From: Pseudomonadota bacterium
Lineage (GTDB): Bacteria; Pseudomonadota; Alphaproteobacteria; Rhizobiales; Pleomorphomonadaceae
Assembly (NCBI GenBank): GCA_018262505.1
Contig: JAGSYV010000046.1
Location: 1-40,126 of the forward strand
Direction of reading: 5' to 3'
DNA length: 40,126 nt
How positions within the stretch are numbered: position 1 is the first letter of the stretch; each line of letters starts with the position of its first letter. Positions 61-18,561 of the stretch are shown here, piece after piece. Position numbers and translations under genes: made by a program. The notes under the pieces were generated by a model. That model ran no database searches, was not told where the DNA came from, and was given only the letters and a program-made list of their open reading frames with translations.

Positions 61-64
<4 letters not shown>
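2..64 (+). CDS. alsA: Sugar ABC transporter ATP-binding protein, C-terminal end (partial, AlsA-like)
   Basis: Only the last 20 codons are in the window. The frame reads through to a TGA that overlaps the next ATG by four bases (ATGA at 61-64). The tail contains TEESIL followed by VAMRDGK, like the C-terminus of RbsA/AlsA-type double ATPases of ribose-family importers. The following gene is the matching permease, so the energising subunit of the D-allose importer is the natural reading. The gene name rests on context only, because the nucleotide-binding domains lie outside the window. Confidence 0.6.
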
Positions 65-1011
<947 letters not shown>

Positions 1012-1042: not shown

Positions 1043-1102
1043 CCGTCCCGCCGCCCTCCCCGGCGGGGCGGCCCGCTCCCGCCACTCCTCCCACGGCGGG
1101 GG
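1043..1102 (+). ncRNA. Tandem hairpins with anti-Shine-Dalgarno loops (cuckoo/CcsR-like element A)
   Basis: Two adjacent hairpins fill the gap between alsC and alsE. The first pairs 1043-1053 with 1061-1071 (11 bp, one G-U) around the 7-nt loop CCCTCCC. The second pairs 1076-1083 with 1095-1102 around the loop ACTCCTCCCAC. Both loops expose CCTCC, the complement of the ribosome-binding site, and the second contains CTCCTCCC. Alphaproteobacterial small RNAs of the CcsR/cuckoo group are built from such hairpins and often sit inside operons. Whether this is a processed RNA or an mRNA-stabilising or expression-tuning element is not shown by sequence. Confidence 0.55.
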
Positions 1103-1140
1103 GCTTGCCGGACAGTACCGGCCCAGACCAGGACGACCCG

Positions 1141-1824
1141 ATGAAGATCAAGATCTCCCCCTCCCTGATGTGCATGGACCTCCTGCGCTTCAAGGAGCAG
1201 CTTACCTTCCTCGACAGCCATGCCGACTTTCTGCACATCGACATCATGGACGGCCATTACGTGCCGAACCTGACGCTGTCGCCCTTCTTCATGGAGAATG
1301 TCGCCAAGGTCTCGAAGCTGCCGATGGATTGCCACCTGATGACCACGGACCCGTGGATGTGGGTGCCGATCATGGCCAAGGCGGGCGCAGGTTTCATCTC
1401 GCCGCAGGCCGAAACCATCAACGCGATCGCCTTCCGCATCATCGCCAAGATCCGCGAACTCGGCTGCAGGCCCGGTGTTGTCCTCAATCCGTCGACGCCA
1501 CTCGACACGCTGCGCCACTACATTCACCTCGTCGACAAGATCACCATCATGACGGTCGATCCCGGCTATGCCGGCCAGCCGTTCATCGAGGAGATGCTGG
1601 AGAAGATCAGCGAGGCCAAGCGTCTGCGCGAGGAACGCGGCCTCAACTTCCTGATCGAGATCGATGGCTCATGCAACAAGCGCACCTATGCGCGCCTGGC
1701 GGCTGCCGGCGCCGATGTGTTCATCGTCGGCACCTCGGGCCTCTTCCACAATCACGAGGACATTACTGAAGCCTGGAAGATCATGACCGCCGACATCAAG
1801 GCGGCCCTCGGAGCGGCAGCATGA
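1141..1824 (+). CDS. alsE: D-allulose-6-phosphate 3-epimerase AlsE
   Basis: Converts D-allulose 6-phosphate to D-fructose 6-phosphate, feeding allose carbon into glycolysis. The 227-residue TIM-barrel protein begins like E. coli AlsE (ISPSLMCMDLL) and keeps the metal ligands of the ribulose-phosphate epimerase family: His32 and Asp34 (HIDIMDGH), His65 (CHLM) and Asp175 (EIDGSCN). It also shares MTVDPGYAGQPFI and VFIVGTSGLF. The ATG at 1141 is preferred over an in-frame ATG at 1033, because the earlier one would add 36 proline-rich residues encoded by the hairpin region. Its stop overlaps alsK (ATGA). One oddity is FISPQAE near residues 85-91, where family members usually have a His-x-Glu. Confidence 0.9.
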   Translation: MKIKISPSLMCMDLLRFKEQLTFLDSHADFLHIDIMDGHYVPNLTLSPFFMENVAKVSKLPMDCHLMTTDPWMWVPIMAKAGAGFISPQAETINAIAFRIIAKIRELGCRPGVVLNPSTPLDTLRHYIHLVDKITIMTVDPGYAGQPFIEEMLEKISEAKRLREERGLNFLIEIDGSCNKRTYARLAAAGADVFIVGTSGLFHNHEDITEAWKIMTADIKAALGAAA

Positions 1825-2714
1825 GCGTTTTCGCCGGCATAGACCTCGGTGGCACGCACACTCGTTTCGCTGTGATGTCCGACGACGCGTTCGTGCTGTC
1901 GGAAAAATACGTGACCGCCGATTTGATGGCGGCCGGCCCCAAGCTTGCCGGTGTCATCAGCCGCTATCATGACGTAATCGGTCGTGCCGGCCTCAAGCCT
2001 GAGGCGGTGGGCATCGGCCTGCCGGCGACGCTGGACGCCGACCGCCGCGTTGTCCTGTCGGCGCCCAACGTCGACGGCCTCGACGGCCTCGACGTGGTGT
2101 CCCTTCTCGAAGGCGCCTTCGCGGTCCCGATCACTGCGGAGCGGGACGTCAACTTTCAGTTCTTCCACGACATGAAGGCCAGCGGCCGGACGCCGAAGGT
2201 GGCGCTCGGCGTCTATATCGGCACCGGCGTTGGCAATGCGGTGTGGATCAACGGTTTCTATACCGGCGCTCACGGCTCGGCTGCCGAACTCGGCCACATT
2301 CCCGTACCCGGCGCAACCGGCACATGCGGCTGCGGCAAGGTCGGTTGTCTCGAAACGGTGTGCTGCGGCCGCTGGCTGAAAGGCTGGCAGGAGCGGAACG
2401 CGCCGGAAACGCCAATCAGCCAGATCTTTGCCTGCCATGGCGACCATCCCGACATCCGTAACTTTGTCGAGACGGCGGCGATGGGCATCGCCACCGCCGT
2501 CAACATCATCGACCCCGAGTTGGTATTCCTCGGCGGTGGCGTTCTCGAAATGCCAAACTTCCCTTTCGACACCCTCAAGACACGGCTCCTCGCCCATGCC
2601 CGCGCGCCTTTCCCACGCGACGTGCTCGAGGTGCGGCTTGCCTCCAATCTCGGCGATAGCGGTGCGCGCGGCGCCTGCCTTTATGTCGCCGGCAAATTCG
2701 GAACGGTACAATGA
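1821..2714 (+). CDS. alsK: D-allose kinase AlsK (ROK family)
   Basis: ATP-dependent sugar kinase that phosphorylates D-allose to allose 6-phosphate in the cytoplasm; 297 residues against about 309 in E. coli. The N-terminal phosphate-binding motif is GIDLGGTHTR (residues 6-15). The catalytic Asp is Asp109 in ERDVNF. The ROK zinc site is intact, with Glu156 and His159 (AELGH) and Cys169, Cys171 and Cys176 (CGCGKVGC). It is coupled by four-base overlaps to alsE upstream and rpiB downstream. The ROK family is broad, so substrate rests mainly on the operon; a glucokinase-like activity cannot be excluded. Confidence 0.8.
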   Translation: MSVFAGIDLGGTHTRFAVMSDDAFVLSEKYVTADLMAAGPKLAGVISRYHDVIGRAGLKPEAVGIGLPATLDADRRVVLSAPNVDGLDGLDVVSLLEGAFAVPITAERDVNFQFFHDMKASGRTPKVALGVYIGTGVGNAVWINGFYTGAHGSAAELGHIPVPGATGTCGCGKVGCLETVCCGRWLKGWQERNAPETPISQIFACHGDHPDIRNFVETAAMGIATAVNIIDPELVFLGGGVLEMPNFPFDTLKTRLLAHARAPFPRDVLEVRLASNLGDSGARGACLYVAGKFGTVQ

Positions 2715-3175
2715 CCGGCAAACTCAAGATCGTCATCTCGTCCGACCATGTCGGCATCGACCTGCGCAAGACCGTGGCCGCCCATCTCGCGGCGCTTGGT
2801 CACACGGTTGAAGATGTCGGCCCGGTCACGGCTGAGCGGACCGACTATCCGAAATGGGGCGAGAAGGCCGCCCGCATCGTCCAGGCTGGTGGCGCCGACT
2901 TTGGCGTCGTCATCTGCGGCACCGGCTTCGGCATCTCGCTTGCCGCCAACAAGCTCAAGGGTATCCGCTGCGTTGTCTGCTCGGAGCCCTACACGGCCCG
3001 CCTGTCACGCCAGCACAACAACGCCAACATGCTGGCCTTTGGCGCCCGCGTGGTCGGACAGGATTTGGCGCTGATGATCGTCGATGAGTTCTTCGCCGCC
3101 GAGTTCGAGGGTGGGCGTCATGCGCGCCGCGTCGACATGATCGGCGAACTCGAGGCCCGCGAAAGCGCCGACTGA
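2711..3175 (+). CDS. rpiB: Ribose-5-phosphate / allose-6-phosphate isomerase RpiB
   Basis: RpiB-family aldose-ketose isomerase, 154 residues. In this operon it would turn allose 6-phosphate into allulose 6-phosphate, the substrate of AlsE; the family also interconverts ribose 5-phosphate and ribulose 5-phosphate. Visible active-site features are SSDHVG near the N-terminus, the catalytic Cys69 in ICGTGFGIS, and His102 within RQHNNANM. The start overlaps the alsK stop (ATGA). It is the last gene of the als operon and is followed by a strong intrinsic terminator. Confidence 0.9.
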   Translation: MTGKLKIVISSDHVGIDLRKTVAAHLAALGHTVEDVGPVTAERTDYPKWGEKAARIVQAGGADFGVVICGTGFGISLAANKLKGIRCVVCSEPYTARLSRQHNNANMLAFGARVVGQDLALMIVDEFFAAEFEGGRHARRVDMIGELEARESAD

Positions 3176-3205
3176 TCCGCATCCCGCTTGTCGGCGGACG
3201 AATTG

Positions 3206-3239
3206 AAAACCGCGCGCTCTTCAGGGTGCGCGGTTTTTT
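3206..3239 (+). terminator. Intrinsic terminator of the als operon
   Basis: Ten-base perfect stem AAAACCGCGC (3206-3215) pairs with GCGCGGTTTT (3228-3237), with a 12-nt loop and a run of six T at 3234-3239. It lies 31 bases after the rpiB stop. The remaining gap to 3422 holds only a weak candidate promoter for the next gene. Confidence 0.9.
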
Positions 3240-3338
3240 GCCGCCGGCTTCGGGCCGGAACATTTGCTCGGGGTAGCTATCGGGCGGATGCAAATGTCTG
3301 GGTTGAACCGGTAGAGTAATGCCTAACTTCTTGAGCTT

Positions 3339-3366
3339 TTGACCGGCATCGTTGTATCGCTAGGGT
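3339..3366 (+). promoter_or_regulatory. Candidate promoter for the ROK repressor gene at 3423
   Basis: TTGACC (3339-3344) is followed after 16 bases by TAGGGT (3361-3366), a fair -35 and a poor -10, ending 56 bases before the ATG. It is the best sigma-70-like match in the gap after the als terminator. Confidence 0.3.
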
Positions 3367-3422
3367 ATCCACCCGGATAGCGGCATTTCGAACGGGCGGC
3401 GGCGAAGACCGAGGACAAGGCG

Positions 3423-4562
3423 ATGACGGGAATTCCCAGGCCGATGACGACGCGCCTTCGGCGAACGCCGTCGCCGGCCAAGGACGGTCCGGGCATCAAC
3501 CATGGCGACATCGCCGATCACAATTCCCGCATCGTGCTGGAACTGCTGCGCGTGTTGGGAGCTCTCACGCGCCGCGATCTCTCCCAGCGCCTCGGACTGA
3601 CCGAGCCGGCGATCACCGGGATCCTCAGGCGTCTCGAAGGGCGTGGCCTCGTCACATCGCGCCGGCAAGCCGACGCCAGTCGCTATCCGGTTACCGAGTT
3701 CATGATCCGGCCGCAGGGTTGCGTGGCGCTCGGGCTGAGGCTGGCCCGCCGAGCAGCGGCGGCGGTCCTGATCGACGCGGCCGGCAACGTCATTGCCCAA
3801 CGGCGCGACGTACCTGCCGAGGATCTGATCGCCGTCGGCAAGGCGCTGCTCGCCCTGAAACCGGCTGAGGCAGAAGTGCTGGGCGTCGGCGCCGCCCTAT
3901 CGCCCGACGACGGTCTCAGCATCGAGGCGGTGCGTGAATCCTTCGCGCCACTCACCGTGCTGGCCAATGCCGACAGCGCCACCGCCGCCACCGCCGAGCG
4001 GCTGATCGGCGCCGGCGACCGCGACGGCGGCTTCGTCAGCATTCTGGTCACCCGATCCGGCGTCCGAGCCGGACTGTCGATCGGCGGTCGCCCCTTCCAT
4101 GGCATGCATGGGTTTGCCGGCGGTATCGGCGCCATGCGCACCGGCCAGGACCGCGCACCGCTGGCCGAGGGACTGTCGCCGGATCGGCTCGACGCAGCCA
4201 TCGCTACGGGCAGCGATCGCGAGACGGCCATCGCCGAATGGGCCCGCGACGCTGCCGACCACTTGCTCGATGCGGTGGTGGCGATTTCCGGCGTGGTGGT
4301 ACCGGGCCTCATCGTCATCGGCGGCGACCTGCCGGATGCGGCGATCGACGCCCTGGTCACCGAGATCCTGGCGGCACCGGTGGCCATCGGCGGCCGGCCG
4401 ACAACCACATCCTGGATGCCGCCGCTCCACCGTTCGTCGTTGCCGACAGCCGGAGTCACCGAGGGCGCGGCGTTGCTGCCGATCGTTGAATTCTTGCTGC
4501 CAGATCCCAAACGGCTTCGGGAGACGCCGGCTCAAGCCGAGAGTGTGGCAGCGCGGGCGTGA
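3423..4562 (+). CDS. ROK-family transcriptional repressor with a degenerate sugar-kinase fold
   Basis: A 379-residue NagC/XylR-type regulator. A winged helix-turn-helix covers about residues 36-82 (LTRRDLSQRLGLTEPAITGI, then LRRLEGRGLV). The rest is a ROK domain that has lost most functional motifs: no CxCG zinc cluster, GGIGAM where GEIGH is usual, and no clear phosphate-binding loop. It probably binds DNA and may sense a sugar, but should not be a kinase. AGGACAAGG upstream supports the ATG at 3423; an ATG at 3444 is a weaker option. It stands alone after the als terminator, so it may control als or the mannosidase block. Its 3' end overlaps the convergent ROK gene by 31 bases. Confidence 0.75.
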   Translation: MTGIPRPMTTRLRRTPSPAKDGPGINHGDIADHNSRIVLELLRVLGALTRRDLSQRLGLTEPAITGILRRLEGRGLVTSRRQADASRYPVTEFMIRPQGCVALGLRLARRAAAAVLIDAAGNVIAQRRDVPAEDLIAVGKALLALKPAEAEVLGVGAALSPDDGLSIEAVRESFAPLTVLANADSATAATAERLIGAGDRDGGFVSILVTRSGVRAGLSIGGRPFHGMHGFAGGIGAMRTGQDRAPLAEGLSPDRLDAAIATGSDRETAIAEWARDAADHLLDAVVAISGVVVPGLIVIGGDLPDAAIDALVTEILAAPVAIGGRPTTTSWMPPLHRSSLPTAGVTEGAALLPIVEFLLPDPKRLRETPAQAESVAARA

Positions 4563-5752
4563 TCGATCCGCAGCGGCACGCGCTTGAGCTGGCCCGCGTC
4601 GGCGGATGGCAAGCCCAGCCGGTGCGCCAGCGGCATGGCCGCCGCGCCGAGGGCCGCTGCATCCTCTGAACAAACCGCGCGGTGCAAGGTCACCGGCGGC
4701 AGGCTGGCGCGTAGAAATTCCTTCTGCGCCTCGACAATGAGTTCATCGATGAGACGCACCGGCATGCGGCCGCCGATCAGCACCGCCTCGGGATCGGCGA
4801 TCAGGGCGATATGCGACACCGCCTCGGCCAGCCAGCCGGCGGCTCGGACAATCCAGGCAGACACCAGCGCCCGACCACGTCCATCCAACGCGGCGAGTTC
4901 GGCAGGGGTGCGTACGACGATGCCATGGGCGCGGAGATGGTCATAGAGCAGGAACATCGAGAACAGCTCGCCGAGCTGGCGGATGCGCCCGGAGCCGCTC
5001 GCATCGACTTCTCGCACCGGCAGGCAACCGATCTCGCCATTGATGCCGCCCGCCCCCTTGTGGCGAACGCCGTCGATGACGAGGGCCCCGCCGACACAGG
5101 CATTGGCGAGGACATAAAAGAAACTGCCGATCTCCGTACCAAGACCGTAGTCGATTTCGCCAAGCGCGGCGGCGTTGGCGTCGTTGTCGATGAAGACGGG
5201 ATGCGGCGTTATCGCCTCGACGGCACCGCGCAGATCGAAGTCGGTCCAGGCGTCATAGGCATCCGGTCGGCCGATGACATCGATCTCGCCCAGCCAATCG
5301 GGAACGGCGAGCCCGACGCCGGCGAGGCGGCCCTCGTCCACCAGCTTGCGGCGACGGAAGGTCGACAGTGCGTCCGAGAACAGTGCCATGAACTCATCAG
5401 GCAGGAAGAAGCTCTTCTCGTGATGGACACGCCCCCGCACCGTACCGGTGGCATCGACCACCACCACGGTGAGATGGTCTCGGTCGATATTGGCGCCAAC
5501 CGAGAACATGCCTTCCGGATCGATCTCCAGCTCGATGGCCGGTTGCCCCCTGAGACCATGGCGGCGGCGCGCTTCCATGACCAGGCCTTCGTCGACCAGA
5601 CGATCGACGATACGGGCGATGGCCTGCTTGGTCAGGCCGCAGCGCGCGGCAAGCTCGGTGCGCGAGATCGGCGCACCACGATGGATGGTCGCCAAAACAA
5701 GCTGACGATTCTTCACGGCCGCCTGTTCGGCGTTCGATCCGAGAAAACTCAC
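4532..5752 (-). CDS. ROK-family transcriptional repressor (mannosidase operon)
   Basis: NagC/XylR-type regulator of 406 residues. The N-terminal winged helix-turn-helix contains ISRTELAARCGLTKQAIARI, followed by a ROK sensor domain with better-kept motifs than its convergent neighbour: VFIDNDANAAALGE and a remnant NGEIGC, though no full zinc cluster. I place the start at the GTG at 5752, because GGGAGG lies a few bases upstream. A TTG at 5824 would give a longer protein but overlaps the mannosidase gene and has no ribosome site. It lies directly behind the alpha-mannosidase on the same strand, so it is probably the local repressor of that operon, released by mannose or a mannoside (inference). 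Confidence 0.75.
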   Translation of the reverse strand: MSFLGSNAEQAAVKNRQLVLATIHRGAPISRTELAARCGLTKQAIARIVDRLVDEGLVMEARRRHGLRGQPAIELEIDPEGMFSVGANIDRDHLTVVVVDATGTVRGRVHHEKSFFLPDEFMALFSDALSTFRRRKLVDEGRLAGVGLAVPDWLGEIDVIGRPDAYDAWTDFDLRGAVEAITPHPVFIDNDANAAALGEIDYGLGTEIGSFFYVLANACVGGALVIDGVRHKGAGGINGEIGCLPVREVDASGSGRIRQLGELFSMFLLYDHLRAHGIVVRTPAELAALDGRGRALVSAWIVRAAGWLAEAVSHIALIADPEAVLIGGRMPVRLIDELIVEAQKEFLRASLPPVTLHRAVCSEDAAALGAAAMPLAHRLGLPSADAGQLKRVPLRIDHARAATLSA

Positions 5753-5811
5753 CGGCGCTCCCTCCCCATCCGCCGGAAGACCGGCGGATGTCAAGAGATT
5801 AGCGCGGGGCC

Positions 5812-8800
5812 TCACGCCTTGCAAAGCCGCCAGCTCTTGACCTCGAAGGGCTTCAGACCACGTGCCGGCACGTCCATCGGCTCTTCAAGAATGGTGACAG
5901 GCTGATCGACGGTCCAATCGTCCTTGAGCGACAACCCGAAGTCACCGCGTCGGCCGGCCGGCTCCCAAACACGCAGGACTAGGCCATCGCCCTCCTCGGC
6001 CGGCTTCAGGACCGAGAGTGCCGCCGGAATACCTTCAGTCACAACGGGCTGGAAGACGCCTGCGGCCAGTCCGCTGACCCGACAGGCCAACAGCGGCTGA
6101 TTGAGGTCATCGGCCTCCTCGCGAACGCCGCCGTCATGCCAGGGACCGGCATGCGGCATCAGCGCATAGGTGAAGGTCTGCTCACCCTCGTCGGCCATCG
6201 GATCGGGGTAGATCGGCGACCGCAACAGGCTCAACCCGAGCACGTTCTCGTGGACGCTATGGCCGTATTTGGCATCGTTGAGCAGGGCAACGCCGAAGTC
6301 TGGCTCGGACAGATCGAGGAAGCGATGGGCCGCCGCCTCGAACATCGCCGCATCCCACGAGGTGTTGGTATGGGTCGGGCGCGTGACGACGCCATAGGCG
6401 CATTCGGCCGTGGCATTGCGGCTCTTGGCGTTCACAGCGGTCAGCGTCCGGAGGAACACGCGGCGATCATGCCAGTCGAGCGTCGTCCTGATATCAAGGC
6501 GACGGGCACCGGCGGCGAGGCTCAGAACCTGAGTGATGGTCGACGAGCGGAAGCGGCGCACCAGCTTGACGGCGATGCGATGCGCCCCTTGCTCGATGAC
6601 CTCAAGGCTCTGGAGATCCGTGACCTCCTCACCCCGCTCGGTGTAGTCACCCTCGATGTCCCATGCGTCCCAGTTGCGCGGCTTGTCGACGGGATAGGCC
6701 ATCAGGCGGTTGCCATAGCCATCGAGCGCCTCGCGGCCGGTCTGCTTGTGCAGGATCGACGCGATGGAACCATCGGCAGCCAACGTCACCCGCAAAACAT
6801 CATTTTCGAGGTGCGTGCGGCTGACCGAAAGCGTGCCGGCTGGTTTGAGATCGGCAGGATCAATGACGGCAACCGCGAGCGGCGGCACGGTCTCCGCCGA
6901 GGAAATCACCGTTCCATCCTCCAACGTCACGCGGACCTGCCGCGTATCGAGGGATGGGTTTGCGACGAGGATGCTCTCGCCGGCCGCCTTGAGCAGCACG
7001 CCGGCGATGGCATCGAGCGCTGCGGCCTGAGCCTTGAGGCCCGTGTCGATCACGTCACCGAGTTCCTGAGCAGCGTCCACATAGACTTCGTGGATCGAGG
7101 ACCCCGGCAGGATGTCGTGGAACTCGTTCTTCAGCACGGTCCGCCAGGCGGGTTCCAGGCTTTCGGGCTTCGGCGCGCCGAGGAGATGGGCGAGCGAGGC
7201 GGTCGTCTCGGCGGTGATCAGCGCACGCTCGGCCTTACGGTGCAGCCGCTTGACGACGCTCTGGCTGGTCAGCGTGCCGCGATGCAGTTCGAGATAGATC
7301 TCGCCCTGCCAGACCGACAGCTTCTTGTCCTTCGCCGTCTGATGGGCCCGTTCGAAGAAATCCTTGACCTTGGTCCAGCGCGCCCTCGGCAGCGTCGGGA
7401 AGGCGCGCAGCTGCTTCTCGCGCGTCACCATTTCCGGCGTCGGGCCGCCGCCGCCGTCACCATAGCCGACGCACAGCAGCGTTTCCGGATGCAGCGCCTT
7501 CTCGCGGAAATTCCGCCAGGTCGGGACGTGGCAATCCGGGCGGACGAAGCCGTTGTAGCCCTGCATCGGGTTGTCAAAGGTGTGAGCCAGCACGCGGCTG
7601 CCATCGAGGCCTTCCCACCAGAACAGGTCGGACGGGATATGGTTAGTCTCCGACCAGTTGACCTTGATGGTGAAGAAGCTGCGGATGCCGGCTTGGCTCA
7701 GAAGCTGCGGCAGAGCGCCGGTAAAGCCGAAGCAGTCCGGCTGCCAGCAAATGTCATGACGAATGCCGAAGGTCTTCTGGAAGAAGCGCTGGCCATAGAG
7801 ATATTGGCGCGTGAGACTCTCGCCGGTGGGCATGTTGGTGTCCGGCTCCACCCAGCTGCCGCCGAGCGTTTCCCATTCACCGGAGCGGACGCGGGCGGCG
7901 ATCTTCTCAAACAGCGCCGGGTCATCCTCGGCCACCTGGGCGTAATAATGGGCCGTCGACTGGTTGAAGCGGAAATCCTTCGACGTTTCCATCAGCGACA
8001 CAGCCGTCGAGAAGGTGCGGCGGGTCTTGCGGCGGGTCTCGCCATAGGGCCACAGCCAGGCAAGATCGATGTGGGCATGGCCGGTCAGGCCAATCTCGCC
8101 TTCCGGCGGGAAGCGCTGCTGCAAGGCTTCCAGACGGGCGATCAGCGCGTCATAGGCGGCAACGACCGTTGCCCGTTCAGCCTGGTTGAGGGCGGCGGGC
8201 GCCTCGATCAGCTCGGGAAGCTGCCAGATTTTCTGCTGGCTTTCGCTCACGGCGGTACGGGCGACATAGTCGGCCGTCGAGGATGGCCAGTCGAGGCCGC
8301 GCAGAGTGTCTTCGGCGGCGGCGATCAGATGCGGCACCACATCATGACCCTCGAGAACATCGACCGCTTCGATCACCTGGGTCACCAGCAGCCACAGCGC
8401 CTCGACGGACGGCTCGGACAACCTGAGTTCGGCACGATTGACGTGCGGACGGCGCACCGGCTCGCCGAACGGCAGGCGGGCGACAGTCTCAGTCGTGACC
8501 GCGAAGGCGCGGCCGGTGAGCGGGAAGCTCTGATGGTAGGGGTCGAGGCCGTAGGACACCGGTTCGCCGCCATCGCAGGCAATGGCGATCAGGCTTTCAC
8601 CGCCAAGATCGAGGCTGAGGACGGTTTCGGCAAGCGGCCAACCGATCGGAACAGACCCCTCGAGCGCGAAATGGACGACGCCGTCCTTGCGCGGCCAGGG
8701 CGCGCCAATCTCGATGGCCGTGCCTTCGAAGGCGATGGCGGAAAGCGGGGCCGTCTCGCGCACCTTCCAGAACTCCAGTTCGGCGACACGGACTTTGAGG

Positions 8801-8832: not shown

Positions 8833-8876
8833 GGGAAACATCCAATTCAAACTGGGAGCGTTTGAGCCTTGTGCGC

Positions 8877-9719
8877 CTAACCCTTGACGGCGCCAGCCGT
8901 CATGGCGCTCAGGATGAGCCGCTGCAGGGCAAGGAAGGCGATGATGGCCGGCACCACCGAGATCAGGCAAGCGGCGGCGAGGATCTGGATGGTGCTGGCA
9001 TTTTGCGTGCCGGCGTACTGAAAGATGCCGACGCCGATGGGAACGAGCGAATCCTTGGTGATCAACAGGAAGGGCACCAGGAACTGCGACCAGCCGGCGA
9101 TCACCGTGATGATGAAGGCGGAGGCCACGCCGGGTGTCGACAACGGCAGGATGATGCGGATGAACACGGAGAGACGGTTGCAACCGTCAATCAGCGCCGC
9201 CTCGTCGAGACTTTTCGGAATGCCGTCCATGTAGCCCTTGAGCAGCCAGGTGACCATGGGCACGCCGAGGGCGATGTAGACCATGATGGCCCCGAAGTGG
9301 CTGTCGATCAGACCGAGCCGAGCCATGTAGCGATAGAGCGGCACCATGATGACCAGCGGCGAAATCATCTGGAAGGCGAGGATGCCGAGCATCCAGACCC
9401 CCTTGCTCTTGAACTCGAAGCGGGAGAAGGCGTAGGCGGCTGGAGCGGCGATGATCAGGCAGCCGACGGCGGACAGGCAGGACAGCTTCAGCGCGTTGAT
9501 CAGGTAGACCGGGAATTGGCTGGAGGTCAGCACCGCCACGAAGTTGTCGAGCGTCGGGTATTTCGGGATCAGCCTGCTGACGCCGAGGAACACCTCCTTG
9601 CGGGTGCGCAGTGCCATGGACAGCAGCCAGATCAGCGGCCAGGCAAAGAAGACGAACATCACCGCCATGAAAGCGTAGCTCAGGATGTCGCCAAGACGGT
9701 CGCGGGTGCGGAGTTTCAT
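8877..9719 (-). CDS. Carbohydrate ABC transporter permease (MalG family)
   Basis: Inner-membrane permease of a CUT1-type importer, 280 residues, normal for the family. It has about six membrane segments, the first near residues 14-36. The cytoplasmic EAA loop contains DEAALIDGCNRLSVF followed by ILPLSTPG, where the ATPase docks. It overlaps the preceding permease by four bases (ATGA) and is followed by the alpha-mannosidase. Mannoside or manno-oligosaccharide transport is inferred from that neighbour only. Confidence 0.88.
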   Translation of the reverse strand: MKLRTRDRLGDILSYAFMAVMFVFFAWPLIWLLSMALRTRKEVFLGVSRLIPKYPTLDNFVAVLTSSQFPVYLINALKLSCLSAVGCLIIAAPAAYAFSRFEFKSKGVWMLGILAFQMISPLVIMVPLYRYMARLGLIDSHFGAIMVYIALGVPMVTWLLKGYMDGIPKSLDEAALIDGCNRLSVFIRIILPLSTPGVASAFIITVIAGWSQFLVPFLLITKDSLVPIGVGIFQYAGTQNASTIQILAAACLISVVPAIIAFLALQRLILSAMTAGAVKG

Positions 9720-10645
9720 GCCTTTTCATCCTTCGGCAGGAAGGAAGCGTAGATGAGCGCCAGGCCAAGGCTGATGACCAGCATCACGATCGACAGCACG
9801 CTGCCGGCCGCGAGGTCATAGTTTCGGAAGACGACGTTGAAGGTATAGAGCGACAGCACCTCGGTGGCGCGACCCGGGCCGCCGCCGGTCAGCGAAATGA
9901 TGGCGTCGAAGGTGTTGAGCGTCTGGATGGTGATCAGGATCATGTTGACCAGAATGGCCGGGCGGAGCTGCGGCAGCGTCACGAAGAACAGCTTCTGCCG
10001 CGCGGTGGCGCCGTCGACCTCGGCCGCCTCGTAGAGCGAGGGATCGATGGCTTTCAGCGCCGCGTACATCACGACCATCGAGAAGGCCGTGCCGCGCCAG
10101 ACGTTGGACAGCACCACCGACCACATGACGACGTCGGGATCCGACAACCATTGCACCGGCGCCATGCCGAGGAGGCGCAACAACGAGTTTAGACCGCCGA
10201 ACGGAGCCTCGTTGAACAGCATCTTCCAGATGATGCCGCCGGCAATGCCAGGCACCACCCAGGCGATCAGCGCGGTGGTTCTGAGAATGGTGGTGCCGAA
10301 CAGATGGCGCTTTTCCGAGCGGACCACGACCAGCGCCATGGCAAGGCCGATCACCTGCTGGCCGATCACCGATCCGGCCGTGAAGACGAAGGTCACCCAG
10401 AGGATCTGCAGCAGTTCAGGACGCGTCAGAACATTGGCAAAGGTCGAAAGCGTGTAGTGCCCCTCGCCACCCAACAGCGTCAGGTCGGTGAAGGCGTAAC
10501 GGAAAACATCAACCACCGGATAGAGATAGAACAGCCCCATCACCAGGATCACCGGCATCAGCCAGGGATAGGGAGATGGAACGCGGTTGTGCCGGCCTGC
10601 CATCCCGAGGAAGGACAGTTTCGACGTCACGGCGCGTGCGGACAT
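9716..10645 (-). CDS. Carbohydrate ABC transporter permease (MalF/UgpA family)
   Basis: First inner-membrane permease of the CUT1 importer, 309 residues, with a hydrophobic segment at about residues 29-47 and five more. The EAA loop reads YEAAEVDGATARQKLFFVTL. The ATG at 10645 is chosen because GAGG lies a few bases upstream; a GTG two codons earlier is possible. It is separated from the binding-protein gene by 145 bases filled with hairpins, which probably lowers permease expression relative to the binding protein. Confidence 0.88.
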   Translation of the reverse strand: MSARAVTSKLSFLGMAGRHNRVPSPYPWLMPVILVMGLFYLYPVVDVFRYAFTDLTLLGGEGHYTLSTFANVLTRPELLQILWVTFVFTAGSVIGQQVIGLAMALVVVRSEKRHLFGTTILRTTALIAWVVPGIAGGIIWKMLFNEAPFGGLNSLLRLLGMAPVQWLSDPDVVMWSVVLSNVWRGTAFSMVVMYAALKAIDPSLYEAAEVDGATARQKLFFVTLPQLRPAILVNMILITIQTLNTFDAIISLTGGGPGRATEVLSLYTFNVVFRNYDLAAGSVLSIVMLVISLGLALIYASFLPKDEKA

Positions 10646-10680
10646 GAGCACCTCGGTATCAGGGGTTCGGCGAAGCGAAA

Positions 10681-10783
10681 GCGGCCGCCAAGCTGGACGG
10701 CCGCCCGCGGCGGGTCGGCTCCGAAGGGTTTATCGGAGCCAGGATCCTGCCGGAAGCCGCCCGTCGGGAGGAACGACGGGCGG
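10681..10783 (-). ncRNA. Intergenic hairpin cluster with an anti-Shine-Dalgarno loop (element C)
   Basis: Three hairpins lie between the binding-protein gene and the first permease gene. Read on the minus strand, the first pairs 10783-10774 with 10766-10757 (10 bp, perfect) around the loop TTCCTCC. The second pairs 10740-10733 with 10724-10717 (8 bp) around TAAACCCT. The third is a GC-rich stem, 10704-10699 with 10686-10681, with inner pairing. Only the first exposes CCTCC. The position after a binding-protein gene fits differential expression within the operon. Confidence 0.5.
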
Positions 10784-10790
10784 AGCGTTC

Positions 10791-12086
10791 TCAGAGCCGG
10801 CCGTAGGCGTCCAGCGTGGCCTTGTAGGCCTCGTCGACGGCGGCGTCGGTGGTCGCGGCGCCGGTCAGCACCTTGCCCATCATGATCTGGATCTGGTTGG
10901 AGATCTCCGGATAGACCAGCACGCCGGGACGAGCCTGGCCGACTTTCAGCGCCTTGGCGAAGGTCTGGTTGGCCTCGCTCTTGAAGACATCGTACTTGTC
11001 ATAGAGGTCGGTGCGGGTCGGCAACTGCTCCTGCAGGGCATTGGCCGGGCCCATATAGACTTCGCGGGCAAGCGCGGCGCACATCTCGACCTTTTCCGGT
11101 TCCGACGAGAAGGCGGCAACCGTCCAGCCGCCGGTGCCGGTCGACCGCTGGTCGGCGGTAATGCCCGGCAGCATCGAGAAGGTCCACTTGGCGAACTCTG
11201 CCGGATCCATCGAGTTCTGCAGCTGGCGATACTGCCAGTTGCCGCCGACGAACATGGCCGTCGTGCCGGCCGCGGCGGCGGCGTTGAAGTCATCGTAATT
11301 GCCGATGGTGGCGACGCGCTTGGGGGCGGCGCCGGATTCAACGAGGTCGCGGTAGTAGTTAACGGCCTTGACGAACTTGTCGCGGTTGGCAGCGTCGGCG
11401 AAGATCGGCTTGCCGGCGTCATCGACCAGCTTGCCACCCTGGCCCCAGAAATTGCCCAGCCAGTCGAAGCCCGTGCCCTCGTAACGGCTACCGTTGAACA
11501 GCATGCCTTCCATGCCGGCCTTGACCGACGCGAGCGCGGCCGCCTTGGCATCAGCCCAGGTTTCCGGCGCGTTCGGCACGATTTCCTTGTTGCGATAGAG
11601 CACACGGAGGTCGGTCGACCACCACCAGGCATAGATCTGGCCGTCCTTGCCGGTGACGCCATCGCGCACGAACGGGAAGAGCTGGTCGATTTCTTCCTTC
11701 TTGAAATAGGGCGACAGCGACTTCAACACGCCGGCCTGCTTGAACAGCGGCAGCACGAAGCTGTCGATGGCGGCGCAGTCAGGGGCATGGCCGGCCTTGG
11801 CCTGCTCCAGCATGCGCGCCTGTTCCTGGCTAATGTCGCCGGTCATCATCTGCAGCTCAAGCTGCCAGCCAGGATGGTTGTTGATGAAATCGGTATAAAG
11901 CTTGGTGTAGCCGGCCGCCCAAGTCGGGTCGGTGCTGGACGGACCGTCGCCGGTCATCCGGAACACCATCTTTTTCGGAGCGTCGGAGGGACCGACGCGA
12001 TCGCTGGTGATCAGGTTTTCGGCGGCGACAGGCAGACAGCCGAGCGCCGTCGCGGCGGCAAGCGCCGCCAGCAGAGATTTCTTCAT
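10791..12086 (-). CDS. Extracellular solute-binding protein, family 1 (mannoside importer)
   Basis: Periplasmic sugar-binding subunit of a CUT1 ABC importer, 431 residues. The precursor begins MKKSLLAALAAATALG with a clear Sec signal peptide and probable cleavage after VAA near residue 23. The mature part shows the family-1 pattern, including YAWWWSTDLRVLYRNK and the aromatic-rich FVGGNWQYRQL. GGGAGGAG precedes the ATG by about eight bases, ruling out the longer reading that starts upstream. It is the first gene of the minus-strand operon, with a good promoter 72-99 bases upstream, and is followed by hairpins. Confidence 0.9.
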   Translation of the reverse strand: MKKSLLAALAAATALGCLPVAAENLITSDRVGPSDAPKKMVFRMTGDGPSSTDPTWAAGYTKLYTDFINNHPGWQLELQMMTGDISQEQARMLEQAKAGHAPDCAAIDSFVLPLFKQAGVLKSLSPYFKKEEIDQLFPFVRDGVTGKDGQIYAWWWSTDLRVLYRNKEIVPNAPETWADAKAAALASVKAGMEGMLFNGSRYEGTGFDWLGNFWGQGGKLVDDAGKPIFADAANRDKFVKAVNYYRDLVESGAAPKRVATIGNYDDFNAAAAAGTTAMFVGGNWQYRQLQNSMDPAEFAKWTFSMLPGITADQRSTGTGGWTVAAFSSEPEKVEMCAALAREVYMGPANALQEQLPTRTDLYDKYDVFKSEANQTFAKALKVGQARPGVLVYPEISNQIQIMMGKVLTGAATTDAAVDEAYKATLDAYGRL

Positions 12087-12157
12087 CGCTTTCTCCTCCC
12101 AGGATAAGCGGAAGCCGTTTGTTGCAAAAAAATCGGCTTCCCAAACCAACGCCAATT

Positions 12158-12185
12158 AGATTAAATCACTTTGTTTTGTTGTCAA
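12158..12185 (-). promoter_or_regulatory. Sigma-70-type promoter of the mannoside transporter operon
   Basis: On the minus strand TTGACA (12185-12180) is followed after 16 bases by TAATCT (12163-12158). The surrounding 35 bases are clearly AT-rich. The small palindrome GATTAAATC (12159-12167) overlaps the -10 region and could be a repressor site. The divergent ATPase gene begins at 12208, so the region may control both directions. Confidence 0.6.
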
Positions 12186-12207
12186 GCCGGTGTCTGGGAG
12201 GGTTTGC

Positions 12208-13206
12208 ATGGCCACCGTCGAAATCAGGAATCTGCGCAAGGCCTATGGCGTGCTGGAGGTGTTGCACGACATCTCGATCGACATTGCCGACGGTGAATTC
12301 GTGGCTCTCGTCGGCCCGTCAGGCTGCGGCAAGTCGACGCTGTTGCGCTCCATCGCCGGTCTCGAGACCATCAACGGCGGCGAGATCCACATCGACGGCA
12401 GGATCGTCAACGATCTCGCCCCCAAGGATCGGGACATCGCCATGGTGTTCCAGAACTACGCGCTCTATCCGCACATGGATGTCGCCGCCAACATGGGCTT
12501 TGCCTTGAAGCTGTCCGGGCGCCCCAAGGCGGAGATCGACGAGCGCGTCGGCAAGGCGGCCGCCATTCTGGATCTGACGCGCCAGCTCGCTCGCAAGCCG
12601 GTGGCGCTGTCCGGCGGTCAAAGGCAGCGCGTCGCCATGGGGCGAGCCATCGTCCGCGACCCCAAGGTTTTCCTGTTCGACGAACCGCTTTCTAATCTCG
12701 ACGCCAAGCTGCGCGTACAGATGCGCGCCGAAATCCGCGAGCTGCAGCAACGGCTCGGCACGACGACGATCTATGTAACGCACGACCAGACCGAGGCCAT
12801 GACCATGGCCGACAAGATCGCCGTGCTCAACGCCGGCCGCCTTGAGCAGGTCGGCGCGCCGCTGGACCTTTATCGCGCGCCGGCCAATCTGTTCGTCGCC
12901 GGTTTCATCGGCTCGCCGCAGATGAACTTGATCACCGGCAGTCTTGCGCAGAAGGCTGGCGCCGACACCATCGGCGTCCGTCCGGAGCATCTTGTCGTCA
13001 GCCGCGACGGCGATGGCTGGCGCGGCCGGGTGATCTCTGCCGAGCATCTCGGCAGTGATACTTTCATTCACGTCGAGGTCGCAGAGGCCGGTCGCCTTAC
13101 TGCCCGTACCGTCGGCGATATGCCGGTGGCGGCCGGGGACGACGTCGTATTGACGCCGGCCGAGGGACACTTGCATCGCTTCGGTGCCGACGGCAAAGCC
13201 CTCTGA
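12208..13206 (+). CDS. Sugar ABC transporter ATP-binding protein (MalK/UgpC family)
   Basis: Cytoplasmic ATPase of CUT1 importers, 332 residues. Walker A is GPSGCGKST at residues 36-44, the ABC signature is LSGGQRQR, Walker B is [12 protein letters not shown], and the switch His lies in [10 protein letters not shown]-terminal MalK-type regulatory domain follows ([10 protein letters not shown]). ATG 12208 has GGGAGGG about seven bases upstream. It is divergent from the mannoside binding protein and 28 bases ahead of the Mak-type kinase. It is the only intact CUT1 ATPase in the window, so it may serve both CUT1 systems. Confidence 0.92.
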
Positions 13207-13234
13207 TTCACTATACCGACGAGGAGACGGCAGG

Positions 13235-14224
13235 ATGTATATCGGGATCGACTGGGGCGGCACGAAGATGGAGGTGGTGGGCCTCGATGCCGGTGGCGTC
13301 GAGCTTTGCCGGCACCGCATCCCGACGCCACGCGAGGATTATGACGCCTCGATCCGGGCGGTGGTCGATCTGGTGGAGCACGTGGAAAAGGCGACCTGCC
13401 AAAGCGGCAGCGTCGGTATCGGCCTGCCCGGCAGTCCCAATCCGCTCACCGGCCTCATCCGCAACTCCAACACCTTCTGGCTGAACGGTCAGCCGCTCGG
13501 CCGCGATCTCGAAGCCGCGCTTGGTCGACCAGTGCGGTTGGCCAACGACGGCAATTGCCTCGCCGTCTCCGAGGCGATCGACGGCGCCGGCGCCGGGCTC
13601 GATGTGGTGGTCGGCATCATCCTCGGCACCGGCCATGGCGGCGGCATCGCCCTCAAGGGCAAGAGCCACGCCGGCTTTCAAGGGCTGGCCGGCGAGATAG
13701 GCCACTACTCTCTGCCCTGGCCGAAAGAGGGCGAGTATCCCGGCCCCAAGTGCTGGTGCGGCCGCAGCGGTTGCCTGGAGATGTTCTGCTCGGGCACCGG
13801 CTTCGAGCTCGACTACAAGACGACGACCGGCATCGCCCGCAAGGCGTCGGAAGTGATCGACCTCAAGCGAGCCGGCGATCCCACGGCCACAGCGGTCTAC
13901 GGCCGCTATGTCGATCGGCTTGCCCGGTCGCTGGCCCTGATCATCGACCTCATCGATCCCGACGTGTTCGTCTTGGGTGGCGGCATGAGCAATGTCGACG
14001 AGCTCTACACCGACGTGCCGAAGCTGCTGTCGACGCGCACCAATCTTTGGGACGGTGAGGCGGCCGGATCGGGCGATGGCCGGCTGGTGTTCTCCGACAG
14101 CGTGGCGACGCCGATTCGCAAGGCCAAACATGGCGACAGCTCTGGCGTCAGAGGCGCCGCCTTCCTCTGGAAAGAGGACGGCGAGAAGTCATCAAATAAA
14201 CGCTCCTTCCTTCAAAGGGCGTAG
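13235..14224 (+). CDS. mak: Manno(fructo)kinase, ROK family (Mak-like)
   Basis: ATP-dependent hexokinase of 329 residues that resembles E. coli Mak along its length: RHRLP-like start (RHRIPTPREDY), WLNGQP, NDGNCLAVSEA, LDPDVIVLGGGMSNVD-like (IDPDVFVLGGGMSNVD) and AKHGDSSGVRGAA near the end. Phosphate loop DWGGTK is at residues 6-11, catalytic Asp is Asp105, and the zinc site is His157 with Cys173, Cys175 and Cys180. Mak acts on fructose and mannose, which fits its place between the mannosidase operon and the fructosidase operon. GAGGAGAC upstream supports the ATG at 13235. Confidence 0.85.
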   Translation: MYIGIDWGGTKMEVVGLDAGGVELCRHRIPTPREDYDASIRAVVDLVEHVEKATCQSGSVGIGLPGSPNPLTGLIRNSNTFWLNGQPLGRDLEAALGRPVRLANDGNCLAVSEAIDGAGAGLDVVVGIILGTGHGGGIALKGKSHAGFQGLAGEIGHYSLPWPKEGEYPGPKCWCGRSGCLEMFCSGTGFELDYKTTTGIARKASEVIDLKRAGDPTATAVYGRYVDRLARSLALIIDLIDPDVFVLGGGMSNVDELYTDVPKLLSTRTNLWDGEAAGSGDGRLVFSDSVATPIRKAKHGDSSGVRGAAFLWKEDGEKSSNKRSFLQRA

Positions 14225-14234
14225 CGCGAATGCC

Positions 14235-14275
14235 TTGACAACAGTTCTCGGCGATGGCATTGGGTAAACGATAAC
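14235..14275 (+). promoter_or_regulatory. Candidate lacI promoter with LacI-type operator (site 1)
   Basis: A perfect TTGACA lies at 14235-14240, with only a weak -10 (CATTGG, 14258-14263) behind it. The operator-like GTAAACGATAAC at 14264-14275 would cover the transcription start. It has the central CG and imperfect dyad symmetry typical of LacI/PurR operators, and matches the second site at 15388-15399 in 11 of 12 bases when read on the other strand. Autoregulation by the LacI protein encoded 72 bases downstream is likely. Confidence 0.5.
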
Positions 14276-14346
14276 TCACGGCGCAAACCGAGCGCGGGCG
14301 AGGAGCCGTATCGGGAAGCGCCGACACCCTGGGAGGGGAACTACCC

Positions 14347-15345
14347 GTGACCGTTTCGCTGCAGGATATCGCCAGCGTCGCCGGGGTGTCGGTCAAGACC
14401 GTCTCTGGCGCATTGCACGGCGGTTCAGCCCGCATGGCCGACGAGACGCGCGATCGGATCCGCAAGATTGCCGAGGAACTCGGCTATGTCACCAATTTCG
14501 CCGCGCGCAGCATGCGGCAGGGCTGGATGCCGCTGATCGCTATCATCGGCGATGAGTTGCTCACCTCGCCCTTTGCTACCGAGATCATCCGCGGTCTCGA
14601 TAACTCCGCCCGTAAAGCCGATCTCTCGGTGTTCTTCACCACCATCGGCGGCGACCGCGACATCGCCAAGGTCTATGACGATGTCAGCCGCTTCCGGCCG
14701 CGCGCCATCGGTTATGCGGCGATGTATCACAAGGAAGTCGTTCTCCCTCCCGAACTCGCCGATCGTATCGGGGTGATGATCAACTGCCGCGACGCCGCCG
14801 GACGCGTGACGTCGCTGGTGCCCGACGAGGAGACGGCCGGCCACACCATCGCCAGCCACCTGATCGACGCCGGCCGGCGCAAGATCGCCTTCATCAACCT
14901 GCCGGGCCTTCTGGCCGGCGAGCTGCGCGAACGCGGCTTCCGGGCGGCTCTCAGTGAAGCCGGGCTGGAGCCGATAGCCGTGCTTCCAGCGGTCAAGCGC
15001 GCCATTTATGCCGACCGAGCGCGCAGCCTGGTCGCCCAACACGTCGCCGAGCTGATGGCCGGGCCAGATCGGCCGGACGCCATTCTCTGCGGCAACGATC
15101 GCGTCGCCATGGAGGTCTACTCCGCGCTCCGCAGGGTGGGCGCCGGTATACCCGATGACGTCGCCGTGGCGGGCTTCGACAATCAGATCGACATCGTCAC
15201 GCGACTCGACCCGCCGCTCACCACCATGGCCCTGCCCCATCGGGCAATGGGCCGGATGGCGGCGGAGATACTTCAGGCGGCCGAACCGCCGGAGAGGGGG
15301 CTGAAACTGCTCCCATTCCAGCTTGTCGAGAGGGCTTCCGTCTGA
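14347..15345 (+). CDS. LacI-family transcriptional regulator
   Basis: Repressor of 332 residues with the LacI helix-turn-helix at the N-terminus (SLQDIASVAGVSVKTVSGAL, residues 3-22), a hinge region, then a periplasmic-binding-like sensor domain. It ends with the conserved pattern DVAVAGFDN and TTMALPHRAMGRMAAEIL. The GTG start at 14347 is preceded by GGGAGGGG. It sits directly ahead of the fructoside transporter genes and probably controls them; fructose or a fructoside is the likely effector (inference). Two matching operator-like sites flank the gene. Confidence 0.9.
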   Translation: MTVSLQDIASVAGVSVKTVSGALHGGSARMADETRDRIRKIAEELGYVTNFAARSMRQGWMPLIAIIGDELLTSPFATEIIRGLDNSARKADLSVFFTTIGGDRDIAKVYDDVSRFRPRAIGYAAMYHKEVVLPPELADRIGVMINCRDAAGRVTSLVPDEETAGHTIASHLIDAGRRKIAFINLPGLLAGELRERGFRAALSEAGLEPIAVLPAVKRAIYADRARSLVAQHVAELMAGPDRPDAILCGNDRVAMEVYSALRRVGAGIPDDVAVAGFDNQIDIVTRLDPPLTTMALPHRAMGRMAAEILQAAEPPERGLKLLPFQLVERASV

Positions 15346-15383
15346 GCTGGTGAGGAACCCAACGAGTGGAGGAGATTCTTACA

Positions 15384-16673
15384 ATGGGTAATCGTTTACT
15401 TAAGGCTCTTGTTGCCACCACCGCGCTGATGGCGATCGCCACGGCCGCCGATGCCAAGACCGTTGTGCGGATGATGCACCAGGGCGATCCTGGCTGGGTG
15501 GCGCTGTACGGCAAGGTCGCCGAGCGCTTTGAGGCAGCCAATCCGGACGTCGATATCGAGCTGATCTACGCGCCGCACGACGCCTACAATGAGAAGTTCT
15601 CGTCGGCGGTGATGTCCAAGCAGTTGCCGGACATCATGGAACTCGATGCGCCCTTCCTCGCCAACTACGTCTGGTCGGGCTACCTCAAGCCGCTCAAGAG
15701 CTACGTCGACAAGGACCTTCTCGACGACATGACGGCGTCCAACATCGCTCAGGGCACCTACCCGATCGACAAGGAGCTCTATGCCATCGGCCTGACCGAC
15801 AGCTCGGTCGTGCTCTACGGCAACAAGAAATATCTCGAGAAGATCGGCGCCCGCATCCCGAAGTCGGTGGACGACGCCTGGACACGCGCCGAATTCGAGG
15901 ACTATCTCGGCAAACTGGCCAAGGTGGACGGCGTCAAGTGGCCGATCGATACCTTCCGCGGCTATGGCATCAAGACCGAGTGGGTGACCTATGCCTACCA
16001 GCCGATCCTCAACTCCTTCGGCTGCGACCTGATCGACCGCACGGCCTGGAAGGCCGAGGGCACATTGGACAGCCAGCCTTGCGTCGATGCGCTCACCATG
16101 ATGCAGACCTGGGTGAAGAACGGCTGGGTCGTGCCGATGTCGTCGGGCACCAACCAGTTCTACGCCGACGGTCAGCCGGCAGCGCTTGCCTGGGGCGGCC
16201 ACTGGTTCTACGCCGAAGCCGCCGCCAAGATGAAGGACGACGTGGTGGTGATGCCGCTGCCGAAGTTCGGCGACAAGAGCGCCAGCCCCGACGGCACCTG
16301 GATCTGGGCGATTACCACCCAATCCGAGCATCCCGATATCGCCGGCAAGTTCCTGAGCTTCCTCCTGAAGGACAAGGACTATCGCGACTACGCGGTGAGC
16401 CAGAGCGCCTACCCGGGCCTCAAGAGCGTTGCTGCCCAGTCGCCGCTCTATGCGGAAGGCGGACCGATGGCCGTTGCCTTCGAGCAGGCATCGAAGGTCG
16501 CCGTGCCGCGCCCACCACACCCGGCCTATCCGACCATCACCTCTGCCTTCATGCAGGCCGTCGACCAGATCTTCAACGGCGAGGACGCCAAGAAGGCACT
16601 GACCGCCGCCGCTCAGAAGATCGACGAGGACATTGCCGACAACGACGGTTATCCGCCGTTCAGCGGCAACTGA
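15384..16673 (+). CDS. Extracellular solute-binding protein, family 1 (fructoside importer)
   Basis: Periplasmic binding subunit of the second CUT1 importer, 429 residues. The Sec signal peptide is residues 1-24 with cleavage after ADA. Family features include MELDAPFLANYVWSGYLKPL and the aromatic run AWGGHWFYAE. The ATG at 15384 is preferred because GGAGGAG lies 9 bases upstream; an earlier in-frame codon at 15366 would be inside that ribosome site. A LacI-type operator covers codons 2-6. The substrate is inferred to be sucrose or a short fructan from the downstream GH32 enzyme. Confidence 0.9.
   Translation: MGNRLLKALVATTALMAIATAADAKTVVRMMHQGDPGWVALYGKVAERFEAANPDVDIELIYAPHDAYNEKFSSAVMSKQLPDIMELDAPFLANYVWSGYLKPLKSYVDKDLLDDMTASNIAQGTYPIDKELYAIGLTDSSVVLYGNKKYLEKIGARIPKSVDDAWTRAEFEDYLGKLAKVDGVKWPIDTFRGYGIKTEWVTYAYQPILNSFGCDLIDRTAWKAEGTLDSQPCVDALTMMQTWVKNGWVVPMSSGTNQFYADGQPAALAWGGHWFYAEAAAKMKDDVVVMPLPKFGDKSASPDGTWIWAITTQSEHPDIAGKFLSFLLKDKDYRDYAVSQSAYPGLKSVAAQSPLYAEGGPMAVAFEQASKVAVPRPPHPAYPTITSAFMQAVDQIFNGEDAKKALTAAAQKIDEDIADNDGYPPFSGN
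15388..15399. promoter_or_regulatory. LacI-type operator (site 2) inside the start of the binding-protein gene
   Basis: GTAATCGTTTAC; the reverse complement GTAAACGATTAC differs from site 1 (14264-14275) by one base. It has a central CG and 5 of 6 symmetric half-site positions. It begins one base after the ATG's following G, so a bound repressor would block elongation rather than initiation, or loop to site 1 about 1.1 kb away. Confidence 0.5.
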
Positions 16674-16683
16674 TATCCGTCCT

Positions 16684-16804
16684 GCATGCGTCTCGTTCCC
16701 TCCGAAACGAGATGCATGCCGTCGGAACAACCGGGGGGGCACGAACTCGCGCTTCCCCGGTACGGCCTGCCGGCGCGCGCCCGCCCTCCCTTCGGGCGCG
16801 CGCC
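16684..16804 (+). ncRNA. Paired hairpins with anti-Shine-Dalgarno loops (element B)
   Basis: Two strong hairpins fill the gap between the fructoside binding protein and its first permease. The first pairs 16684-16697 with 16706-16719 (14 bp, one G-U) around CCCTCCGA. The second pairs 16772-16783 with 16793-16804 (12 bp, perfect) around CCCTCCCTT. The loops share CCCTCC with element A. Stem sequences are unrelated to each other, so the common loop is not explained by simple duplication. Confidence 0.55.
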
Positions 16805-16838
16805 GCCCTCCTGCCACCCATCGCCCGGCGAGGGGCCC

Positions 16839-18559: not shown

Positions 18560-18561
18560 CC

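Follow-up and report, generated by a model that had tools for sequence, protein, structure and literature searches.

Intercistronic hairpins with CCTCC loops, most of them likely constrained in the loop, between genes of sugar-uptake operons of a bacterium in or near Pleomorphomonas

Hairpins that expose the anti-Shine-Dalgarno (aSD) motif CCTCC in their loops were found in three intergenic elements, designated A, B, and C, of a 40,126-nt stretch of DNA from a soil bacterium (assembly GCA_018262505.1, contig JAGSYV010000046.1; hereafter, the window). A sequence-only reading had described five such hairpins between genes of sugar ATP-binding cassette (ABC) transporter operons, and all five were confirmed, each in the same orientation as the genes around it. 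For four of them (A1, A2, B3, and C1), comparison within the genus indicates that the loop is likely to be constrained. We tentatively interpret these four as protective intercistronic hairpins that would also present an aSD loop to strong Shine-Dalgarno (SD) sequences, a reading to which we assign a probability of about 0.38.

Element A comprises two adjacent hairpins on the plus strand, in a gap between a permease gene and an epimerase gene: A1 (positions 1043–1071, 11 bp, loop CCCTCCC) and A2 (1076–1102, 8 bp), whose loop ACTCCTCCCAC contains CTCCTCCC. Element C, on the minus strand, contains a single CCTCC-loop hairpin, C1 (10757–10783, 10 bp, loop TTCCTCC), which is the first hairpin 3′ of a binding-protein gene. 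Element B, on the plus strand, contains two, B1 (16684–16719, 14 bp, loop CCCTCCGA), which is not conserved in the genus, and B3 (16771–16805, 13 bp, loop CCCTCCCTT). Two minus-strand neighbors in gap C served as internal controls, namely C2 (10716–10741, loop TAAACCCT), whose loop is not kept, and C3 (10681–10704, loop CAGCTT), whose stem is kept and whose loop is free. The stems of the different elements are unlike one another, and their loops have CCTCC in common; when species are compared for any one element, however, the stems too show good conservation. The possibility that element A is a coding extension of the epimerase gene was rejected: the upstream frame is open, but the A1 loop lengths differ by non-multiples of three, and some relatives have ATATAAG at the place of the upstream ATG of our own genome.

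Orthologous A, B, and C gaps were gathered from the genus genomes, giving 12 distinct loci per element. The A1 loop contained CCTCC at 10 of these loci (lost in JP5/L085; element absent from G008), and the A2 loop also at 10 (lost in G001; element absent from G008). In A1, the loop length ranged from 6 to 11 nt and the flanking letters differed, while the CCTCC core stayed. The automatic caller placed CCTCC in the B3 loop at 8/12 loci, and the core was present column-wise in 10 of the 11 aligned genomes; for C1, the corresponding values were 7/12 and 8/11, or 10/12 loci if three are read by hand in a one-mismatch register. The mean column identity of the core was 0.77 for A1, 0.85 for A2, 0.89 for B3, and 0.83 for C1, compared with 0.39 for B1, 0.49 for C2, and 0.40 for C3, the control loops in the same gaps. 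C3, with its conserved stem and free loop, is the cleanest of these controls, and the B1 core was retained in only one of 11 genomes, our own. G008 diverges most within the genus, judged by its A and B proteins; its gap B lacked B3 but held a different hairpin with a CCTCC loop, and its C1 loop read CTCCTCC, with stems that differ from those of the other genomes. These alignments suggest that selection on the loop, as the sequence-only reading had proposed, acts on A1, A2, B3, and C1; for B1 the proposal was not supported. Outside the genus, no CCTCC loop was found in the few orthologous gaps examined (G041, G018, and G019 for B; G041 for C; L092 and L093 for A).

The frequency of CCTCC loops was examined in two samples, one from our own genome, consisting of the window and 40 stretches picked around binding-protein genes (628 kb of 5.28 Mb), and the other from G012, a one-contig relative from which 40 stretches were taken at even intervals (800 kb of 5.48 Mb). 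Genes were called with a home-made caller based on codon usage. In the codirectional gaps of the window, CCTCC occurred in 5 of 17 hairpin loops, whereas the composition of loops in the remaining stretches of our own genome predicts 0.12, and five was not attained in any of 20,000 draws. The choice of the window on account of these loops makes this comparison post hoc; independent support comes from the conservation of A1, A2, B3, and C1, but not of B1, in the genus. In the own-genome stretches outside the window, the motif was present in 4/282 loops versus 1.4 expected (P = 0.054), and in G012 it was present in 11/569 versus 2.3 expected, or in 6/562 versus 2.1 expected (P = 0.016) when one gap with an array resembling the cuckoo RNAs considered below was removed. 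The excess beyond the window was therefore modest in both samples, two- to threefold on few loops, among which one paralogous repeat (L165, L169) counts twice. A motif that stands out in a single window can thus be rare in the genome as a whole. The repeat itself (L165, 18623–18703; L169, 15275–15373) consists of paralogous small-protein genes with signal-like starts, arranged in tandem pairs with a common hairpin between them (loop AGAGACCTCCC).

The presence of such a hairpin in every sugar operon, as a shared layer of control over sugar uptake, was not supported when gaps 3′ of SBP_bac_8 binding-protein genes were surveyed in three genus genomes. Our own genome had 48 SBP_bac_8 matches, 47 of which were carried forward; 4 of these were left out and 2 lacked a usable gene or neighbor, and of the 41 gaps obtained, 36 were codirectional and at least 20 bases long. 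From G012, 30 of the 52 matches were used, and from G010, 30 of the 43, with the gaps read to 220 bases. Among the resulting 94 codirectional gaps, hairpins of 7 bp or more were present in 81 and CCTCC loops in only 6 (own genome, 3/36; G012, 3/30; G010, 0/28). The hairpins 3′ of binding-protein genes thus resemble the ordinary malEFG kind, and their short loops mostly drift. The G012 gaps without an ortholog of B yielded three CCTCC loops, in two gaps, versus 0.38 expected (P = 0.005). The evenly spaced G012 sample contained one more CCTCC loop, between an SBP_bac_5 gene and a permease gene (L150). Comparison of the 6/94 binding-protein gaps with 6/319 codirectional gaps from the G012 sample, for which the settings of the hairpin caller differed slightly, gave a Fisher P value of 0.033; the enrichment was rejected, as the counts became 4/92 and 5/318 (P = 0.12) without the window and its ortholog and with L150 on the binding-protein side. 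In another family of binding-protein gaps (L023), CCTCC loops occurred in four of six genomes (CTCCTCC in three, TTCCTCC in one) and were absent from our own genome and G010. A hairpin with an ATCCTCC loop at L008 was rejected as a further conserved case, since its letters are identical in G002 (L195) and it is absent from the other five of seven loci. This identical 29-base palindrome (L008, 1769–1987; L195), found in two genomes, is mobile-repeat-like.

The SD sequences of binding-protein genes are strong in the own-genome stretches, where GGAGGAG precedes 8/40 binding-protein genes versus 5/530 other genes, and GGAGGA precedes 15/40 versus 29/530. When 570 SD sites were ranked by pairing, the A2 loop placed the SD of the operon C binding-protein gene 3rd, and the C1 loop placed that of its own binding-protein gene 20th. 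The tail of the 16S rRNA also preferred binding-protein SDs, with an area under the curve (AUC) of 0.72. Covariation of the C1 and B3 loops with the SDs of their own binding-protein genes was discarded as evidence because the SD core hardly varies and the comparison is thus uninformative. A precedent for aSD pairing of this kind is NfeR1, which is reported to regulate two ABC binding-protein mRNAs and ntrB through CCUCCUCCC aSD motifs (PMC10746234).

The cuckoo-type arrays were found elsewhere in the genus genomes. DUF1127 proteins are encoded in all 14, and in 13 of them one such gene lies directly 5′ of an array of CTCCTCCC motifs, with nine motifs in 11 loci (L202–L212), eight in L213, and four in L069, the locus of our own genome. 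The caller assigned 4 to 7 motifs per array to hairpin loops on stems of 6 bp or more, and L209 has one extra motif far upstream. Cuckoo/CIN1 loci are known with two to four hairpins, a number that the genus arrays (L202–L213) exceed. The array at L069 (contig C248, about 528–830) looks shortened, by deletion or through an assembly effect, and the 3′ end of its DUF1127 gene reaches the middle of the array. In G012, two tandem DUF1127-type genes and a small open reading frame are followed by a 9-bp hairpin with the loop CCCGCCTCCCT (L185, 4317–5562). The arrays fit the published description of hairpins with CCUCCUCCC loops (PMC3927594, PMC10746234).

A covariance model (R1) built from 18 array hairpins of the genus found matches in all 14 genomes, scoring up to 36.6 bits and including two array-type hairpins on contig C8 of G011, apart from the loci reached by the DUF1127 search. 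In the window, it scored A2 at 14.9, C1 at 14.5, and A1 at 11.8 bits (expectation value E of 0.1–0.85 for 40 kb), and B1 and B3 were not listed at E up to 10. In a genus scan with this model, in which 150 candidates were scored per genome out of 1152–2648, A1 of G004 (18.9 bits) and A2 of G010 (19.0 bits) appeared at E of about 0.9, and no window match appeared at E up to 1 among the 150 scored of 1744 own-genome candidates. None of the window loops contains CCUCCUCCC: A2 has CTCCTCCC and the other four have CCTCC only. Among the A, B, and C loops listed for the relatives, the full motif was present in A1 of G004 alone, whose loop is exactly CCTCCTCCC. Adjacent CCTCC-type hairpins numbered two in A, one in C, and two in B of our own genome. 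No DUF1127 gene lies directly upstream of the elements, the own-genome matches being on contigs C248 and C220 and the window on C158. An Rfam scan of the window at E up to 1 gave three matches, each of which fell short of the gathering score and lay away from elements A, B, and C. One of them, IRES_Bip (16090–16262, 27.8 bits against a cut-off of 40), lies inside a binding-protein gene and is most likely spurious. Thus, the cuckoo/CcsR architecture that the sequence-only reading had seen in the window exists in the genus as DUF1127-linked arrays; the window elements could function in the manner of cuckoo RNAs, but their loops, scores, and surroundings do not show them to be members of the family.

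The hairpins, their conserved loop cores, and the cuckoo-type arrays elsewhere in the same genomes are observed, whereas exonuclease protection, the release of fragments, pairing, and an effect of that pairing are inferred. By analogy with malEFG, these hairpins, like most of those 3′ of binding-protein genes, would probably block 3′-to-5′ exonucleases and thereby determine the relative amounts of the gene products, and selection would additionally have retained an exposed CCUCC(C) loop in these few cases. The most likely use of such a loop would be pairing with strong GGAGG SDs, for example those of binding-protein mRNAs, in a manner akin to the CCUCCUCCC loops of NfeR1 and cuckoo RNAs; either the intact mRNA or a processed hairpin fragment could pair, in trans or on the same message. 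This reading was favored because the next gene is not a preferred partner of A1, A2, or C1, and is a moderate one for B3. If each loop instead paired in cis with the SD of the next gene and lowered its translation, that SD should be a good partner, and the B3 loop can indeed form CCCUC/GAGGG with the permease SD; however, the SD of the next gene ranks 482nd for A1, 490th for A2, 229th for C1, and 82nd for B3 among the 570 sites. Masking of ribosome-binding sites, also put forward from the sequence alone, was therefore rejected for the next gene in A and C and retains weak support in B, and we regard this cis mechanism as highly improbable overall; titration or silencing could instead act in trans. 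Membership of the true cuckoo family, with processing to stable small RNAs (sRNAs), appears the least probable of all: the two adjacent hairpins of element A, the exact motif in A1 of G004, and the G004 and G010 scores that just attain E of about 0.9 are in its favor, but the window scores are low, C1 is a lone CCTCC-loop hairpin, B3 alone is conserved in B, and the genus scan, with 150 of 1744 own-genome candidates scored, listed no window match at E up to 1.

The main rival is that these are ordinary protective intercistronic hairpins and nothing else, with CCUCC present by descent and through C-rich composition, and with conservation that reflects short divergence. This is possible, although we consider it doubtful. 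It agrees with the frequency of hairpins and the rarity of CCTCC loops in the binding-protein gaps, with the modest excess beyond the window, and with the fact that other loops are at times conserved as well. In contrast, the neighboring loops C2, C3, and B1 drifted over the same genomes in which the CCTCC cores remained mostly unchanged, and in the divergent G008, C1 has the loop CTCCTCC and gap B has a further CCTCC loop, on stems unlike those elsewhere. Several results nevertheless weigh against an additional role of the loop. The stems and flanks of element A are well kept too (mean identity 0.83), so the A1 and A2 cores are not outstanding within their gap (percentiles 0.19 and 0.31), and among loops without CCTCC, 10 of 42 ortholog pairs were identical (4 of 12 for loops of at least 5 nt). 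Compensatory stem changes in C1 and B3 did not exceed shuffles and were dropped as proof, the observed values being reached by 54 to 252 of 500 shuffles for C1 and by 188 of 500 for B3; rows G004 and G008 were excluded from the counts on alignment A3, and G010 (other register), G005 and G006 (letters duplicating other rows), and G008 from those on alignment A4. The binding-protein gaps outside the window showed no excess in our own genome (one CCTCC loop versus 0.55 expected) or in G010 (none versus 0.46). The B3 loop ranked the SD of its own binding-protein gene only 105th of 570, and reversed or permuted C/T loops favored binding-protein SDs with AUC values of 0.74–0.76 versus 0.77 for the cuckoo loop; because the control loops do almost as well, this preference reflects strong SDs rather than specific targeting. 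Finally, the loop could be a candidate site for an RNA-binding protein, such as a DUF1127 protein (CcaF1-like) that also acts on the cuckoo-type array. The occurrence of these proteins in all 14 genus genomes, with an array directly after one of their genes in 13 of them, is consistent with this explanation, as is the account of CcaF1, a small RNA-binding DUF1127 protein that promotes CcsR maturation and affects many other RNAs (PMC10253847). However, the literature consulted gave no sign that DUF1127 proteins prefer CCUCC loops, and the explanation seems unlikely.

The window was placed in or near Pleomorphomonas, and its epimerase shares 93–97% identity with those of named relatives. Element A lies in a 129-base gap between a sugar ABC permease gene (61–1011, plus strand; best NCBIfam model, D-allose ABC transporter permease) and a gene for a ribulose-phosphate 3-epimerase family protein (1141–1824, plus strand), so it is not 3′ of a binding-protein gene. 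Elements B and C each separate a binding-protein gene from a permease gene. In operon C, on the minus strand, these are an SBP_bac_8 gene (10791–12086, SD CTGGGAGGAG) and an ABC permease gene (9716–10651) whose frame opens with GTG at 10651, with an ATG two codons on. In operon B, on the plus strand, they are an SBP_bac_8/SBP_bac_1 gene (15384–16673, SD GTGGAGGAG) and an ABC permease gene (16839–17774, SD GGCGAGGGG); gap B is thus followed by this permease gene and a GH32 frame. The latter is a single 831-aa frame (17767–20262) whose first ~47 residues look by eye like a membrane permease and whose Arg/His-rich middle, without a Pfam match, is followed by a GH32 domain; perhaps a second permease is frameshifted into the GH32 gene, either truly or by sequencing error. 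Orthologs of the epimerase were not found in G002 and G007 (the search did not include G013), and those of the B and C proteins were not found in G001 and G007.

A wider role is conceivable, in which a second, operon-embedded set of aSD hairpins, cuckoo-derived or convergent, dampens the strong-SD binding-protein mRNAs of competing sugars. This is rather unlikely; if true, a post-transcriptional sugar hierarchy would be encoded in the sugar operons of Pleomorphomonas, with protected hairpins acting upon operon transcription. Among the papers listed by literature searches that covered few subscription papers, we met no report of aSD loops inside ABC operons, which is a weak negative. The DUF1127-linked array, with nine motifs in most genus members, offers a handy extreme case for work on cuckoo RNAs.

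To our knowledge, protective hairpins of the malE–malF type have no loop sequence requirement. A stable hairpin between a binding-protein gene and a permease gene, which characterizes that type, is present in B and C, and the strong hairpins 3′ of binding-protein genes in 81 of the 94 gaps are like it; element A, which follows a permease gene, is unlike it. Protective hairpins are described 3′ of malE and in other operons (PMC5927463). In their aSD loops, and in stems that differ between elements, the window hairpins resemble the cuckoo/alpha-r14 RNAs (SmelA075, SmelA099, and NfeR1) and CcsR1–4 of Rhodobacter sphaeroides; the predicted targets of NfeR1 are mostly ABC transport mRNAs, and two binding-protein mRNAs are confirmed (PMC10746234, PMC3927594, PMC7143759). 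Hairpins with CCUCCUCCC-like loops number three and four in SmelA075 and SmelA099 (PMC3927594), whereas the elements described here have only one or two, and their CCUCC loops are shorter. NfeR1 has a promoter of its own and the CcsR RNAs belong to a DUF1127 operon, whereas the window hairpins lie inside sugar operons. AbcR1 and AbcR2 are similar in having aSD motifs and predicted ABC transporter targets (PMC7143759), but differ in being free-standing Hfq-binding sRNAs of another structure. Alphaproteobacterial aSD hairpin loops are known in the form of sRNAs, and several of these silence mRNAs for ABC transporters; the loop-conserved versions in a few transporter operons would join regulator and target on one transcript.

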